Source: Bacteroidales bacterium
Lineage (GTDB): Bacteria > Bacteroidota > Bacteroidia > Bacteroidales > Bacteroidaceae
Length of the DNA: 64,000 nt
Direction: 5' to 3'
Assembly (NCBI GenBank): GCA_029218405.1
Contig: JAQXRG010000124.1
Location: 1 to 64,000, forward strand
Below, one piece after another: positions 3,321 through 58,003 of this stretch; the stretch's first letter is position 1, and every line of letters begins with the position of its first letter. The position numbers and the translations under genes were made by a program. The notes beneath the pieces were generated by a model. The model saw only the letters and a list, made by a program, of their open reading frames with translations, was not told the origin of the DNA and searched no databases.

Positions 3321-4613
3321 CTACAGGGCATATAACACGGCGAACAGGGGGATGTTCTCCATCCACGTCTGGTCCCGGTAATCGGACATGGACAGTCGCA
3401 CGCCTTTCATCCCCTCATGGGCGGCTACAAAATGGCTGAGCGACTTCGCCTTCACGTTCTCCTCCGCCTTCACCTCGACAGGAAGTAGGCGGCCTCCCTT
3501 CTGCACGAGGAAGTCCAGCTCCCCGTCACTCCTTTCACTGCTCCAGTAATACACCTGCAGGTCCTCCCTTGCCACCATCTGCTGCAGCACATATTGTTCC
3601 GTGAACATTCCCTTGAGCTCCTCAAAGACCTGGTTGCCTATCAGCATCATGTCTGCGGGCGCTCCGCTCAGGGCGGCCAGCAGTCCCAGGTCCAGGAAGA
3701 ACAGCTTGAAGGCGGAGAGGTCCTCGTAGAACTTCAGGGGGACACCCGCTTTCCGGACCCGCGGCACCTTCGTCAGTATGCCACAGTCCATCAGCCACTG
3801 GATGGCTACCTCGAACTCGGCGGCACGGGCACCTTTCTTGAGCACGCCATAGATGAACTTCCTGTTCTCCTTCGCCAGCTGGGAGGGGATGGAGTTCAGC
3901 ACCATCAGTATCCGCTGCACGTCGGAGGTCGGAGCGTGCTTGGACACGTCATTCGCGTACGCGGTCAGTATGTTCTCCTGTATCCGCCGCACCTTCGCCA
4001 GGTTGCCTTCCTGCACATAGCTGAAGACGGCCTCCGGCATCCCACCCACATAGTAGTATTGCCGCAGGAGGTCTATGAACTTGGATTTCAGTATCTTCAG
4101 GAGCTGCCAGTCCGGACATGGCAACAGCCGTGCCAGCGGCTCGTTGCCCGTCGCCCACAGGAACTCCTCAAAGTCCAGCGGATGGATGTCCAGCATGTCT
4201 ACCTTCCCGACCGGAAACGAGGTGCCCGGATGGAGCGCTATGCCCAAGAGGGACCCTGCCACCATCACATGGTATTCGGGAGCGTTCTCACAGAAGTACT
4301 TGAGTACGCCCAGCCCCCTGTTTACCTCTTGTATCTCGTCCAGGATAATCAGTGTCTCGCCAGGCCGGGGGATAACCCCTGTCAGTGCCTGCAGGGCGGT
4401 GAGGATGCGTGGCACGTCATAATCGGTATCGAAAATGCCCCGCAACCGTTCGTCAATGTCAAAATTGGCGTAAAGTACACTGGCGTACTCCCTGCTGCCG
4501 AACTCTTTCATCAGCCAGGTTTTCCCTACCTGACGTGCTCCTTTGAGAATCAGCGGCTTCCTGTGCGGGTCCTGTTTCCATTCCAATAGTCGGGTATATG
4601 CTTTTCGTTTCAT
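3321..4613 (-). CDS. AAA family ATPase, AAA_14 + DUF4143 type
   Basis: Walker A LKGARQVGKTWL, Walker B LIILDEIQ, C-terminal DUF4143-like region with VEVKAEENVKAKSL; ATG at 4613. Confidence 0.85.
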   Translation of the reverse strand: MKRKAYTRLLEWKQDPHRKPLILKGARQVGKTWLMKEFGSREYASVLYANFDIDERLRGIFDTDYDVPRILTALQALTGVIPRPGETLIILDEIQEVNRGLGVLKYFCENAPEYHVMVAGSLLGIALHPGTSFPVGKVDMLDIHPLDFEEFLWATGNEPLARLLPCPDWQLLKILKSKFIDLLRQYYYVGGMPEAVFSYVQEGNLAKVRRIQENILTAYANDVSKHAPTSDVQRILMVLNSIPSQLAKENRKFIYGVLKKGARAAEFEVAIQWLMDCGILTKVPRVRKAGVPLKFYEDLSAFKLFFLDLGLLAALSGAPADMMLIGNQVFEELKGMFTEQYVLQQMVAREDLQVYYWSSERSDGELDFLVQKGGRLLPVEVKAEENVKAKSLSHFVAAHEGMKGVRLSMSDYRDQTWMENIPLFAVLYAL

Positions 4614-4617
4614 GACT

Positions 4618-4700
4618 ACACTTTTTCGGATGAATAATTGCCACAAAGATACACTTTTTCGGACGAATCATCACTATAACTGCCCACTTTTTCGGACGAA
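4618..4700. repeat. Three direct repeats (cactttttcggaYgaa) at exact 33-bp spacing upstream of the AAA_14 ATPase
   Basis: Copies aligned on 'cac' at 4619, 4652 and 4685. Confidence 0.8.
4644..4651 (-). promoter_or_regulatory. Bacteroidota -7 box (TATCTTTG) of the AAA_14 ATPase gene
   Basis: Minus strand TATCTTTG, matches TAnnTTTG, about 30 bp upstream of ATG. Confidence 0.5.
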
Positions 4701-4874
4701 CAGGGAATCAAGTGAAGATGCCCCGAATAGAACTCCAGCAGGGACTATACGTCACTTGGTGTCGAACTTGATGAGGCAGGTCATCCAATGCATTAATCGG
4801 AAAATGGTGTAGGTGACTGCAACTTGTACAAAAATCCTGGTAGAGAAGCAGCGGCGGGTAATTTGGCCGGGTCT

Positions 4875-5104
4875 GAGAATGCCTGTGCTGAGGTTACAAG
4901 AATGCCTGTCGTTACGGTACAACGACAGGCATTCTTGTTCTGTAACGACAGGCATCGTCAGGAGGTAACAACAGGCATTCTTCCACCGTAACAACCGCAG
5001 TTGTGACGGTCTCACGAACGAAGTCATGAGCTCCTCATGAACCCGTTCGTCAGCCCCTCACGAACCCGTTCATGAGGGAGTGACAAACCCAGTCGTGAGC
5101 AGGC
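4875..5104. repeat. 23-bp-period tandem array A (10 units), semi-palindromic degenerate units
   Basis: Units at 4875, 4898, 4921, 4944, 4967, 4990, 5013, 5036, 5059, 5082, all 23 bp; e.g. aagaatgcctgtcgttacggtac, aacgacaggcattcttgttctgt, cacgaacccgttcatgagggagt. Confidence 0.9.
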
Positions 5105-5914
5105 TTATTTCGGCAGGCCGAAGGCAACCGTCATCTCGTGCATCTGCTCGTCCGTCATGCCCTCCGGCTCGAAGCCCATGGTGCGGGCGTTCAGGTAAAT
5201 CTGGGCCGCCTTGGAGAGTACGTCAATCTGGTCGAAGGCATCCATCACATCGTCGCCTACGGCAAACACACCGTGCTTTTCCCACATCACTACATCGTAG
5301 TCATCGAGCTCGGCCAAGGTAGCTTCCGCCAGGTCCACCGAGCTGGGCATCTTGTAAGGTACGATGCCCACGCCGCGCGGACAGAAGGCCTTGGTTTCCG
5401 GAATCATGCTCCACAGCAGGTGGGTCATGGCGTCCTTCTCTAAGAACCGTTTGTTGTGCGTCATGGCCACTAGGTCGATGGGGTGCGTGTGCACGGTCGC
5501 CTTCTTGGCGCCACCCTGGCTGATGAGCCAGTTGTGGACAGACAGGTGTGCGGCCACTTCGGAAGTGGGCACCACGGTCTGGTCGGCGATGATGACATAG
5601 CTGGCGCAGTCGTCGCAGATGCGGATGATGGAGCCGTTCGCCATCGGCCAGCGGGCCAGGTCGCGCATGCGCTTGCCGGTGCCCTTGCAGTAGAAATAGC
5701 AGCCCTTCAGGTGGGGGAGGGTAGCGCCGATGGACTTCGGCTCGGTGAGGGCCGGCAGCTGGCGGATCTCGTCGTCCACAAATTCAGTCACGTTGATGGT
5801 AATGTTGCCGCCGTTGCGCTCGGCCCAACCTTTCTGCCACAGATAGCCGGCAACTTCGGCTACTTGGTTGATTTCATGGGCCAATGCGGGGCGTCCTTCA
5901 AGAATTGATTTCAT
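5105..5914 (-). CDS. rhaD: Rhamnulose-1-phosphate aldolase
   Basis: 269 aa class II aldolase fold, NGGNITINVTEF, HTHPIDLVAMTH, WEKHGVFAVG. Confidence 0.9.
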   Translation of the reverse strand: MKSILEGRPALAHEINQVAEVAGYLWQKGWAERNGGNITINVTEFVDDEIRQLPALTEPKSIGATLPHLKGCYFYCKGTGKRMRDLARWPMANGSIIRICDDCASYVIIADQTVVPTSEVAAHLSVHNWLISQGGAKKATVHTHPIDLVAMTHNKRFLEKDAMTHLLWSMIPETKAFCPRGVGIVPYKMPSSVDLAEATLAELDDYDVVMWEKHGVFAVGDDVMDAFDQIDVLSKAAQIYLNARTMGFEPEGMTDEQMHEMTVAFGLPK

Positions 5915-50769: not shown

Positions 50770-52107
50770 TTATTCGAAGGAGCCCATGCGCAGCATGTTC
50801 ACTTCCTGCTCCGTGAGGAAGCGCCAGTCGCCCCGGCGCAGGCCCTTCTTGGTCAGTCCGGCAAAGTACACGCGGTCCAGCTTGGTGACACGGTAGCCCA
50901 GTGACTCGAAGATACGGCGCACGATGCGGTTCTTCCCCGAATGAATCTCAATGCCCACCTGCGACTTGTCGGTGTCCGAGGCGTAGCTGATGGAGTCGGC
51001 GTGGATGTCGCCGTCGTCCAGCGTGATGCCGGCGGCAATCTGGTCCAGGTCCGACTTGGCTACGTTCTTGTCGCAATACACATGGTAGATTTTCTTCTTC
51101 AGGAACTTGGGGTGCGTCAGCTTCGAGGCCAGGTCTCCGTCGTTGGTCAGCAGCAGCACGCCCGTGGTGTTGCGGTCCAGACGGCCTACCGGATAGATGC
51201 GCTCCTTGCAGGCATCCTTGACGAGGTCCATCACCGTCTTGCGTTCCTGCGGGTCGTCGGAGGTGGTGACACAGTCCTTCGGCTTGTTCAGCAGCACATA
51301 GACCTTGCGCTCGATGTTCACCGGCTGGTCGTGGAACTTGATCTCGTCGGAGCGTTTCACCTTCGTGCCCAGTTCGGTCACCACTTCGCCGTTGACCGAC
51401 ACGACACCGGCGGTGATGAACTCGTCCGCCTCACGGCGTGAGCAGATGCCGGCGTTGGCCAGGAACTTGTTCAGACGGATGGGCTCGTTGGGGTCCGCCA
51501 GGATTTCCTTGTACTCCATCTGTTTCTTGTGGCTGTACTTGGCATGGGGGTTGTAGTCGGCTGTGCGCGGACGGAACCCACCTTTGTTGGCACCGTAGCC
51601 TCCGCCAGACTGTCCCGGACGGCGGTTGTTGCCGTAGGGACGCTGCTGTCCTCCCTCGCCGTTGTTGAACCGGGGACGGTAGGAGCGTTGCTCGCCGCTC
51701 TCATTGTTGTAAGAGGGACGGTTGCCGTACGGGCGCTGCGGACGCTCGCTTCCTTCGTTCCGGTAGTTCGGGTTGTACGGGCGGCGCGGGCGGTCGCTGC
51801 CGCCTTCGTTGCTGTTGAACCGGGGACGGTAGGAGCGTTGCTCGCCGTTCTCGTTGTTGTAAGAGGGACGGTTGCCGTAGGGACGCTGCGGACGTTCGCC
51901 TCCTTCGTTCCGGAAGTTCGGGTTGTACGAACGGCGCGGGCGGTCGTTGCTGTCACCGTTGCTGTTGAAGCGGGGACGGCGGTTCCCGTACGAACTGCCG
52001 CCTTCGTATTTGTTGTATCTGTTCGCTCCTTCTCTGTTGTACGATTTGTAACCTTCGCGGCCAGACTGGCTGTATTCGCCATCAAGTCTGTTTTCGTTTT
52101 CTGCCAT
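50770..52107 (-). CDS. RluB/RsuA-type rRNA pseudouridine synthase with repetitive Arg/Asn/Tyr-rich N-terminal domain
   Basis: S4 domain (IRLNKFLANAGICSRREADEFI), PVGRLDRNTTGVLLLTNDGDLASKLTHPKF; N-terminal GERPQRPYGNRPSYNN repeats. Confidence 0.9.
   Translation of the reverse strand: MAENENRLDGEYSQSGREGYKSYNREGANRYNKYEGGSSYGNRRPRFNSNGDSNDRPRRSYNPNFRNEGGERPQRPYGNRPSYNNENGEQRSYRPRFNSNEGGSDRPRRPYNPNYRNEGSERPQRPYGNRPSYNNESGEQRSYRPRFNNGEGGQQRPYGNNRRPGQSGGGYGANKGGFRPRTADYNPHAKYSHKKQMEYKEILADPNEPIRLNKFLANAGICSRREADEFITAGVVSVNGEVVTELGTKVKRSDEIKFHDQPVNIERKVYVLLNKPKDCVTTSDDPQERKTVMDLVKDACKERIYPVGRLDRNTTGVLLLTNDGDLASKLTHPKFLKKKIYHVYCDKNVAKSDLDQIAAGITLDDGDIHADSISYASDTDKSQVGIEIHSGKNRIVRRIFESLGYRVTKLDRVYFAGLTKKGLRRGDWRFLTEQEVNMLRMGSFE
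51671..52000 (-). repeat. 150-bp (50-aa) in-frame tandem repeat within the pseudouridine synthase gene
   Basis: cggggacgg anchors at 51671, 51821 and 51971; protein repeat RPRFNSN..RPRRPYNPNYRNEGSERPQRPYGNRPSYNNE.GEQRSY. Confidence 0.85.
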
Positions 52108-55056: not shown

Positions 55057-57168
55057 TTAGCGGATGCTGATGGCCACTCCGCCGCTGGGCGCCAGGCGTT
55101 GCCGGAGCACGGTCTTTGCCGTCACCTTCTTCCGGGTGATGACGTACGCCTTGGGGTTGGTCTGCCAGTGCGCGTCCTTCGCGTCGGCATAGAGGGTCGC
55201 CTCGAAGGTGCGTCCGGCCGGCAGGAAGCTGAGGTCGATGACCGCCGTGCGGGCGTTCTCGTCGGTGATGCCGCCCACATACCATTCTTCCTTCCCTTTG
55301 GCCTTGCGGGCGATGGTGATGTAGTCACCGGGTTCCGCTTCCAGCACCTTCGTGTCGTCCCAGTCCACCGCCACGTCCTTGATGAACTGGAAGGCATCGG
55401 GGTAGCGCTCGTAGTTGGGATAGAGGTCCGCCGCCATCTGCAGGGGACTGTACATCGTGACGTAGAGGGCCAGCTGCTTCGCCAGCGTGGTGCTGAGCCG
55501 GGCCGGGTTGGAACCATAGACGGAGAGGTCGCCCTCGAAGATGCCGGGCGTATAGTCCATCGGTCCTCCCATCAGGCGGGTAAAGGGCAGGATGGTGGTG
55601 TGGTCGGGCCGGTTGCCGTTGAACGACTCGAACTCCGTGCCGCGGGCCGACTCCTGGGCAATCCAGTTGGGATAAGTGCGGCAGAGCCCTGTGGGACGTA
55701 CCGCCTCGTGCGAGTTGACCATGATGCGGTGGCGCGCCGCCTCTTTCGCCACATGGAGATAGTGGTTCACCATCCACTGTCCGTCGTGGTGCTCGCTGCG
55801 CGGGATGAGCGGACCCACATAACCGGTCTTCACCGCGTCGTAGCCGTGGGCGTTCATGAAGCGGAAGGCATCCGCCAGCTGCCGCTCGTAGTCAAGGGCG
55901 GACGAGGTGGTCTCGTGGTGCATGATAATCTTCACCCCTTTCGCCTTGGCGTAGCGGTGCAGCTCCTCGACATCAAAGTCGGGATAGGCGCGGGTGAAGC
56001 TGTAGATGCGTTCTTTGGCGTAGGCCCAGTTGTCTTCCCATCCTTCGTTCCATCCTTCCACCAGTACGGCGTCGAAGCCGTGCCGGGCGGCGAAGTCGAT
56101 GTATTCTTTCACGTGGGCCGTGTTCGCGCCGTGGTGCCCGTTGGGCGGCAGCTGGCTGTAGTCAGTCTCGCCGATGCGGATGTCCTGCGTGTCGGTGTAG
56201 GCCCAGGTGGAGCCGCCGCCGGTGAAGTATTCCCACCATACGCCCACGTACTTGGTGGGATGAATCCACGAAGTGTCCTCCAGAGCGCAAGGCTCGTTCA
56301 GGTTGAGGATGAGGGAGGAGGCCAGCAGGTCGCGCGCGTCGTCACTGACGATGAGGGTGCGCCAGGGCGATACGCTGCCGGTCTGCAGGTAGCCCTTCAC
56401 ACCGTTCTTGTCGGGCGTGAGGTGGGTGCTCAGCACAAACCGGCGGTCGTCTAAGTTGAGGTGCATGGCGGGATAGTCCACCAGTGCCGCCTCGTGCAGG
56501 CTGATGTAGAGTCCCTCGGCCGTCTTCAGCAGCAGCGGCGTCTGTACGGCGAGGGTGGGAGAGGGCGACTTGCAAGCCAGCCCTTCCTCGCGCACGGCAG
56601 GCATCCGTTCCGCCACTTCCGACAGGCGGGAGGTGGTGGTGGGGAATTCGTTGGTGTCATAGTCGGCGGGCAGCCAGAAGGCGGTATGGTCGCCGGTCAG
56701 CCGGAACTCGGTCAGCTCTTCGGCCAGATTGAAGTGGCGCAGATGAGGCTGGGTGGGAAACTCGTAGCGGAATCCCAGTCCGTCGTCGAAGAGGCGGAAC
56801 CGGAGGTGGAGGCGGCGTTGGCTTTTCTCCTGCTCCAGCTCTACGGACAGCTCGTTGTGGTGGTCGCGGATGCGGCTGTACTGTCCCCATACGGGGGTCC
56901 ATTCGGTGTCGGAAGTACGCTCCGTGTGGGACAGGATGCGGAACCCACTGCTGTAGTCGATGTTGGGGAGGATGCGGAAGCCCATGCGGCTTTCTTCCAC
57001 CACCGCCTGTCCTTTATAGAATAAGGAATAGGCGGGCGTGCGGTCTTCCGTCAGGCGGAACCGCAGTTCGAACTGTCCGTTGGGGGAACGGAGGGTTTGG
57101 GCGACGGTCGGCAATGCCGTCAGCAGCCCTACGAGGAGGGCGAGTAAGGGTCTGTTCAAGTGTCTCAT
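55057..57168 (-). CDS. Glycoside hydrolase family 97 (SusB-like alpha-glucosidase/galactosidase)
   Basis: Signal peptide, LRSPNGQFELRFRL, YVGVWWEYFTGGGSTW, MVNSHEAVRPTGLCRTYPNWIAQESARGTEF. Confidence 0.93.
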   Translation of the reverse strand: MRHLNRPLLALLVGLLTALPTVAQTLRSPNGQFELRFRLTEDRTPAYSLFYKGQAVVEESRMGFRILPNIDYSSGFRILSHTERTSDTEWTPVWGQYSRIRDHHNELSVELEQEKSQRRLHLRFRLFDDGLGFRYEFPTQPHLRHFNLAEELTEFRLTGDHTAFWLPADYDTNEFPTTTSRLSEVAERMPAVREEGLACKSPSPTLAVQTPLLLKTAEGLYISLHEAALVDYPAMHLNLDDRRFVLSTHLTPDKNGVKGYLQTGSVSPWRTLIVSDDARDLLASSLILNLNEPCALEDTSWIHPTKYVGVWWEYFTGGGSTWAYTDTQDIRIGETDYSQLPPNGHHGANTAHVKEYIDFAARHGFDAVLVEGWNEGWEDNWAYAKERIYSFTRAYPDFDVEELHRYAKAKGVKIIMHHETTSSALDYERQLADAFRFMNAHGYDAVKTGYVGPLIPRSEHHDGQWMVNHYLHVAKEAARHRIMVNSHEAVRPTGLCRTYPNWIAQESARGTEFESFNGNRPDHTTILPFTRLMGGPMDYTPGIFEGDLSVYGSNPARLSTTLAKQLALYVTMYSPLQMAADLYPNYERYPDAFQFIKDVAVDWDDTKVLEAEPGDYITIARKAKGKEEWYVGGITDENARTAVIDLSFLPAGRTFEATLYADAKDAHWQTNPKAYVITRKKVTAKTVLRQRLAPSGGVAISIR

Positions 57169-57275
57169 AGTTTCGTAAAATGCTTGGTAGGCAAAAGTAG
57201 TGTTTTTTTCTCCAAGATGCAAGCGAAAAAACGAGGAAGAAGATTTTGTTTTACAAAAAACGAGGGTCGCACCCT

Positions 57276-57505
57276 TACGACTGCGTTCGTTACCTCCTCA
57301 CGACTTCGTTGGTGGCCCTCTGACGAACGCGTTCGTGACAACCTCACGAACGCAGTCGTCAGACCGTCACGACTGCGGTTGTTACGGTACAAGAATGCCT
57401 GTCGTGACCTTGCAAGAATGCCTGTCGTTAGGAGGTAAGAATGCCTGTTATAAGGAGGTCACAATGGGCAGTCTCGTCCCCTCGAAACAGGCATGTTGCT
57501 ACTCC
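57276..57505. repeat. 23-bp-period tandem array B (8 clear units plus 2 decayed), homologous to array A in inverted orientation
   Basis: Units at 57276, 57299, 57322, 57345, 57368, 57391, 57414, 57437, 57460, 57483; e.g. cacgaacgcagtcgtcagaccgt, cacgactgcggttgttacggtac, aagaatgcctgtcgttaggaggt. Confidence 0.88.
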
Positions 57506-57526
57506 CTATACCCGTGTTTTTGGTGA

Positions 57527-57617
57527 TTTTGCTGTCACCTACACCTTTTTTCTTTTATTCGATTGGTACATAACAAGATAGGTAGGTAGCAGAAGGGTGA
57601 CAGAGGTGACAGCAAAA
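57527..57617. repeat. 14-bp perfect inverted repeat flanking a T-rich loop beside array B
   Basis: ttttgctgtcacct (57527-57540) / aggtgacagcaaaa (57604-57617). Confidence 0.8.
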
Positions 57618-58003
57618 GTATGAAATATACATTATTTAACTAAAAAAATAGCCAAAAAACTTCTAATTCGTCAGAGTTTCATGTCACGCTTTGGAACCTG
57701 AATTATGAACGGTTCCAAAAAGAGTTCACCAAAGAGGGAAACGAGTTCCTAAAACCACAAAGGAAAAAGCTATGAGACAGAGACACCGTTCACGGTTATC
57801 GTTGTGAATCTGTCACCAGTGTATATGCGAAGTCTTTCATCTGAATCTCATATATTTCCTGCTTCAGCATCCATTCTCTGACGCTCTCACTTTCCGTATG
57901 GATGTGTACATCGTAAAAGCGAGGGAGAGCACGCCGCTCTCGCCTCGCTTGTCCGGACAGGCCCTCTTTTCGGAATGCTGTCACAGGCCGGTTAGATAAG
58001 AGA

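Follow-up and report, generated by a model that had tools for sequence, protein, structure and literature searches.

Related Repeat Systems

The closest known system is BrickBuilt, the MITE/minisatellite of P. gingivalis, which consists of head-to-tail 23-nt units with no spacers between them and occupies 19 sites in ATCC 33277 (PMC4596501). Its copies are intergenic, carry flanking leader and tail segments, vary in unit number at conserved loci and have a narrow host range; the terminal inverted repeats are GAGACCTTTGCA and TGCAAAGGTCTC, the unit sequence is published as a figure logo, and one copy (BrickBuilt_14) abuts the gene of a PF00216 DNA-binding protein (PMC4596501). The REP/BIME elements are short palindromes outside genes that form mosaic clusters, frequently at the ends of genes, and have been proposed as binding sites of chromosome proteins (PMC2817692, PMC3733652, PMC12306157). 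For intergenic minisatellites such as BrickBuilt, the functions suggested so far are proposals only. Tandem operators of the phage type are 17–18-bp dyads with a step of ~23–24 bp, whose conserved positions lie in symmetric half-sites ~10 bp apart. In our search of the literature, no papers on palindromic repeats of Phocaeicola or on 23-bp intergenic repeats of Bacteroidetes were found.

Array B and Its Inverted Homolog

The window, that is, the whole stretch of 64,000 nt analyzed here, belongs to a Phocaeicola genome (a 2.7 Mb MAG, 83% complete). It contains a 23-bp-period array of head-to-tail units (array B, 57275–57499) and an inverted homologous copy (array A). The features of the two loci are the following:

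3321..4646, minus strand: AAA_14-DUF4143 ATPase gene on the tail side of array A (Pfam)
4785..4845, minus strand: partial tail of array A, 72% identical to the tail of array B
4874..5098, minus strand: array A, inverted homologous copy of array B (block 2, 4874–4983; junction dyad, 4989–5006; block 1, 5012–5098)
5105..5914, minus strand: class II aldolase gene (rhaD-like, Aldolase_II; Pfam), ending 6 bp from array A
55057..57222, minus strand: GH97 glycoside hydrolase gene (Pfam), 5′ end toward array B; longest ORF, with the TTG start of the ORF list
57275..57366, plus strand: block 1 of array B, four 23-bp units, each an 18-bp dyad (TNACGANNN and NNNTCGTNA) plus a 5-bp spacer
57367..57384, plus strand: junction dyad of array B (TCACGACTG and CGGTTGTTA) with flanks gaccg and cggta, common to array A and other copies
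57390..57458, plus strand: block 2 of array B, three units of the AAGAATGCCTGTCGTTA type
57459..57499, plus strand: two terminal decayed units of array B
~57509..57640, plus strand: tail of array B, common to the copies on contigs C138, C99, C122 and C155 and partly to array A and the C18 copy
57527..57540, plus strand: left arm of the tail inverted repeat, TTTTGCTGTCACCT
57604..57617, minus strand: right arm of the tail inverted repeat, AGGTGACAGCAAAA

In a single register, the units of array B start at 57275, 57298, 57321, 57344, 57367 (the junction dyad), 57390, 57413 and 57436. The two decayed units start at 57459 and 57482, and a further unit at 57252 is doubtful. This matches the eight clear plus two decayed units counted in the initial annotation, whose junction sequence (gaccgTCACRACTGCGGTTGTTAcggt, followed by AAGAATGCCTGT) was also correct. 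Read on the minus strand, array A has the same order of blocks as array B. A similarity search of the window's own genome aligned the reverse complement of array A to array B with 74% identity over 175 bp (E 1.7e-24), in agreement with the homology first proposed. The local alignment score of the pair was 129, a value reached in none of 300 trials in which the unit columns of array A were permuted (mean 16.8, maximum 28) and in none of 300 in which the order of its units was shuffled (mean 71.9, maximum 124). Being above both nulls, this score indicates that the arrays share sequence as well as unit order, as had been claimed, and that they resemble each other more than random tandem arrays do.

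A coding repeat was rejected as an explanation of the arrays, the period of 23 not being a multiple of 3 and stop codons occurring inside the units. Elsewhere in the window, a 150-bp tandem repeat of two copies with 91% matches (51663–51979) seems to be repetitive coding sequence.

Composite Architecture and Distribution

Full copies are ordered as block 1, junction dyad, block 2 and a tail of ~130 bp, and only short or variable sequence is found on their leader side. In array B, the tail contains a 14-bp inverted repeat followed by a conserved AT-rich stretch. The ~130-bp tail is present in five copies (array B, C138, C99, C122 and C155) and partially in three others (array A, C18 and contig C106 of P. 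plebeius). In the window's genome it was found beside arrays only, weak matches aside. Genes of the BT4734-like_N (VirE) type were considered as a source of the tail and rejected; the two such genes of the same genome gave no significant match to it. Rfam covariance models returned only a sub-threshold match on the tail of array B (20.4 of 78 bits), and tRNAs at other loci.

At least 14 array sites exist in the window's genome. Twelve were found by DNA similarity, including those on contigs C138, C99, C16, C18, C122, C142, C144, C155, C27 and C181, and two additional ones (C31 and C70) upstream of HU-like genes; unit counts were taken from similarity searches and sampled stretches of the genome. 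On the basis of sequence comparison, a dispersed composite repeat that does not code for protein is established, and array B is one of its copies. The initial annotation had proposed a dispersed two-block element; the dispersal is borne out by at least 14 sites with unrelated neighbors, and the description in two blocks has to be extended, as at least five copies also carry the tail. Additions to that annotation are the tail (~57509–57640), genomic copies three to fourteen and, as described below, the four positions that are invariant in each unit.

A P. plebeius MAG (G013) has nine array sites. In a survey of the genus, the repeat family was found in 2 of 62 Phocaeicola genomes, namely the window's own and the P. 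plebeius MAG. A stricter two-unit pattern, scanned across genomes of the taxonomic family, matched only the window's own among 400, a list that did not include the P. plebeius MAG, and the exact array sequence is therefore rare. Since most Phocaeicola species are without the repeat family, any function of the arrays is dispensable. One Prevotella MAG (L107, genome G078) has related arrays, with units similar to block 2 that adjoin a 21-bp palindromic block. A pattern scan of viral contigs gave no match.

The comparison with P. plebeius shows that at orthologous loci the pattern is kept, while the lengths of the arrays and their blocks have changed. At a tRNA locus, for instance, the own copy (C142) and that of P. 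plebeius (C106) have the junction unit in common; in C142, block 1 is longer than in C106, and most of block 2 and the tail are absent. Blocks at the same locus thus differ in length between species. The same tRNA locus in 28 other Phocaeicola is without an array, but the upstream sequence itself is different. For the pair C70 and C4 (the latter from P. plebeius), the HU gene is 88% identical as against 66% for the array region. The HU-like gene and upstream array of C31 (L264) are 98–99% identical to those of P. plebeius C92 (L082), compared with differences of 10–20% at other orthologous loci, which suggests a recent transfer or the contamination of one of the MAGs. From the dispersal of the copies, we infer that they are mobile.

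Unit Structure and Four Near-Invariant Positions

In all arrays, placed in one register, every unit is composed of an 18-bp dyad and a 5-bp spacer, and successive unit starts are exactly 23 bp apart in 101 of 108 cases. The consensus half-sites of the dyad are YNANRANNS and SNNTYNTNR. The half-sites of both blocks (TCACGAACG, TCACGACTG, CAAGAATGC and TAACGACAG) can be aligned without gaps, and blocks 1 and 2 are therefore probably related. A CRISPR array was rejected, as the units are contiguous and variable at most positions, and the 5-bp spacers recur instead of being unique.

Within the variable units, four positions stay nearly unchanged, that is, A3, A6, T13 and T16. In the window's genome they showed 4 differences in 288 comparisons of adjacent units, against 642 in 1368 for the other 19 columns. 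Per column, over 72 pairs of adjacent units, there were two differences at A3, none at A6 and one each at T13 and T16, whereas the other 19 columns had a mean of 33.8 and a minimum of 17. The column-permuted null was exceeded by all 12 own arrays tested (p ≤ 0.008 each), which are the arrays that first drew attention to the pattern. Chains of five units with the four-base pattern numbered 22 at a spacing of 23 and one at all remaining spacings from 19 to 28 combined. In P. plebeius the pattern is present in a weaker form, partly because array edges were counted in, and in the Prevotella arrays, taken singly, it is mostly not significant.

The four positions are symmetric about the dyad (A3 with T16 and A6 with T13), so that A.T base pairs are held fixed 3.5 and 6.5 bp to each side of its center. 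A3 and T13, as well as A6 and T16, are 10 bp apart, which would place each pair on the same face of the helix, as for the contacts of a dimeric protein. Compensatory Watson–Crick pairing across the arms was no better than expected from column independence at positions 1–7, a result which argues against RNA hairpins and fits DNA half-sites. As judged from these substitution patterns, purifying selection on four positions per unit is well supported in the window's genome.

Gene Context

Pfam assigned the neighbor of array A to Aldolase_II and that of array B to GH97, as had been read from the sequence initially. Five arrays (A, C122, C138, C16 and C142) begin no more than some tens of bases from a stop codon. 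By inspection, accessory genes border 6 of the 14 own sites: AAA_14-DUF4143 at array A, ATPase_2 at C99, PDDEXK_2 at C16 and C155, and HU-like genes at C31 and C70. Such genes look enriched beside arrays, given that the whole genome has few matches to PDDEXK_2 (12), DUF4143 (6) and HU-HIG (6).

DUF4248 and HU-like genes flank the arrays at C70 and C31 of the own genome and at C4 and C92 of P. plebeius, and a DUF3987/PriCT_2 or DnaB_C gene adjoins the array at C4 and C70. Of the nine P. plebeius arrays, five have an HU-like gene, or what is left of one, downstream. An obligate HU partner was rejected, as seven HU-HIG loci of genome G047 and three of G007 were examined and had no arrays. Two short arrays of P. 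plebeius (L203:11216–11419 and L211:234–437) are paralogous, with 79% identity including their flanks; the former precedes a broken HU-like gene and the latter a remnant of an HU promoter.

The lack of a conserved context agrees with the earlier view that the element is not a regulator specific to one gene. The strict conservation of A3, A6, T13 and T16 in every unit nevertheless speaks for binding of the units by a protein, so that a regulatory or chromosome-organizing role is conceivable.

Comparison with the Known Systems

BrickBuilt was compared by architecture and terminal repeats. In common with it, the Phocaeicola arrays have 23-bp tandem units without spacers between repeats (101/108 starts at 23), a dispersed intergenic location, length changes at conserved loci and a narrow distribution. 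Tail segments, which five copies have in full and three in part, may be a further parallel. On the other hand, the terminal inverted repeats of BrickBuilt are absent, the best matches in six copies having 3–5 mismatches of 12. Two unit blocks, a junction dyad and a distinct inverted-repeat tail also set the Phocaeicola arrays apart, and the four-position constraint is not described for BrickBuilt.

Mosaic clusters of palindromic units, often at gene ends, recall the REP/BIME elements. Compared with these, which exceed 100 copies per genome, ~14 sites are few for a high-copy family. The palindromes are 20–40 bp long in that system; here they are imperfect 18-bp dyads, mostly between genes. The strict head-to-tail step of 23 bp and the stems that do not covary are points of difference. 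No RAYT or transposase was found among the array neighbors classified by Pfam. Tandem phage operators resemble the arrays in dyad size, in the step of ~23–24 bp and in symmetric half-site positions ~10 bp apart; they differ in that the arrays are placed at many unrelated loci, with 4–10 units each and only four invariant bases. The Phocaeicola arrays are thus of the BrickBuilt/BIME kind and not a demonstrated member of either. The new feature is the unit itself, an 18-bp dyad and 5-bp spacer with near-invariant A3, A6, T13 and T16.

Possible Role of the Arrays

The most likely reading, which we hold with about even confidence, is that an array would serve as a multi-site landing pad for a putative DNA-binding protein. 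A symmetric (dimeric) protein would bind weakly to the double-stranded DNA of each unit, and the constant step of 23 bp would let neighboring proteins sit side by side along the array, by analogy with phage operators. Such arrays could act in regulation, insulation or nucleoid organization at gene ends. As a non-autonomous element similar to MITEs or BIMEs, the repeat would spread to new sites, and slippage or unequal recombination would alter the length of its copies. One candidate binder may be the HU-like proteins encoded beside several arrays. The four fixed columns and the absence of covariation between the arms favor a double-stranded, dyad-symmetric protein site over RNA hairpins or neutral drift.

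The arrays could instead be a neutral minisatellite of the BrickBuilt type within a non-autonomous transposable element, the units being functionless and alike through slippage and copying only. The dispersal of 23-bp arrays with a tail, their patchy presence (2 of 62 genomes of the genus), the rapid turnover of length and the precedent of BrickBuilt (PMC4596501) all agree with this explanation. We nevertheless consider it unlikely, as slippage or copying would not freeze exactly four symmetric columns amid variable neighbors. A REP-like element acting as RNA, with transcribed hairpins at gene ends that stabilize or attenuate mRNA, seems distinctly improbable. The arrays have a strong predicted folding (z −5.5 on one strand and −6.6 on the other) and, as noted, five of them begin close to a stop codon, but good folding is expected of any palindromic array, the arms have no compensatory excess at positions 1–7 and no Rfam match reached its threshold.

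The gene neighborhoods bring in a further possibility, namely an iteron-like origin or operator of an HU-like/DUF4248/DUF3987-primase cassette, the scattered arrays being remnants of past cassette insertions. The arrays between DUF4248 and HU-like genes at four loci point in this direction, as do three more P. plebeius arrays upstream of HU-like genes or remnants and the DUF3987/PriCT_2 or DnaB_C gene beside C4 and C70. A cassette is missing from the surroundings of most arrays, A and B among them, most of the HU-like loci examined are without arrays and no replication initiator is adjacent, all of which makes this origin very improbable.

If the landing-pad reading is extended beyond Phocaeicola, a dimeric protein that reads only four A.T pairs (A3, A6, T13 and T16) per 23 bp might allow the unrelated units of Phocaeicola, Prevotella and possibly Porphyromonas (BrickBuilt) to serve one protein class, so that the 23-bp step and not the sequence would be conserved across Bacteroidales. 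We put this forward tentatively and with more doubt than belief. A DNA-binding system that reads four A.T pairs per 23 bp was absent from the literature searched. If true, a new layer of gene-end or nucleoid organization would be present in common gut bacteria. With the four-position constraint, what was a vague repeat becomes a model of binding sites that can be tested, since a probe of defined sequence with defined changes could lead to the protein. Furthermore, the arrays mark rapidly changing loci, which are of use in strain discrimination.

Other Repeats of Similar Period

In the Prevotella genome G078, more 23-bp arrays (L173–L176 and L188) are made of the private units CCATGACAGTCATGATGA, TTAGGATAGTTATCATCA and TAAGAATGGCTGTTGTGA, and most of them adjoin the 21-bp palindromic block TTCGCAGTGGCGAACGTACG. 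Intergenic 23-bp repeats of the type CACAGGCAAGAATGCCTGTG are located at several acidobacterial loci of Bryobacterales/Solibacteraceae (L108 and L112–L115). The 23-bp repeats of Bryobacterales and Rhizobium which have an 11-mer in common with block 2 were put down to chance, since the copies within a tandem array are not independent of each other. Finally, Phocaeicola G047, a species without the 23-bp family, has a dyad array with a 22-bp period and units of the TTTCACTTTAGTGATGAAG type (L153:7504–7598).
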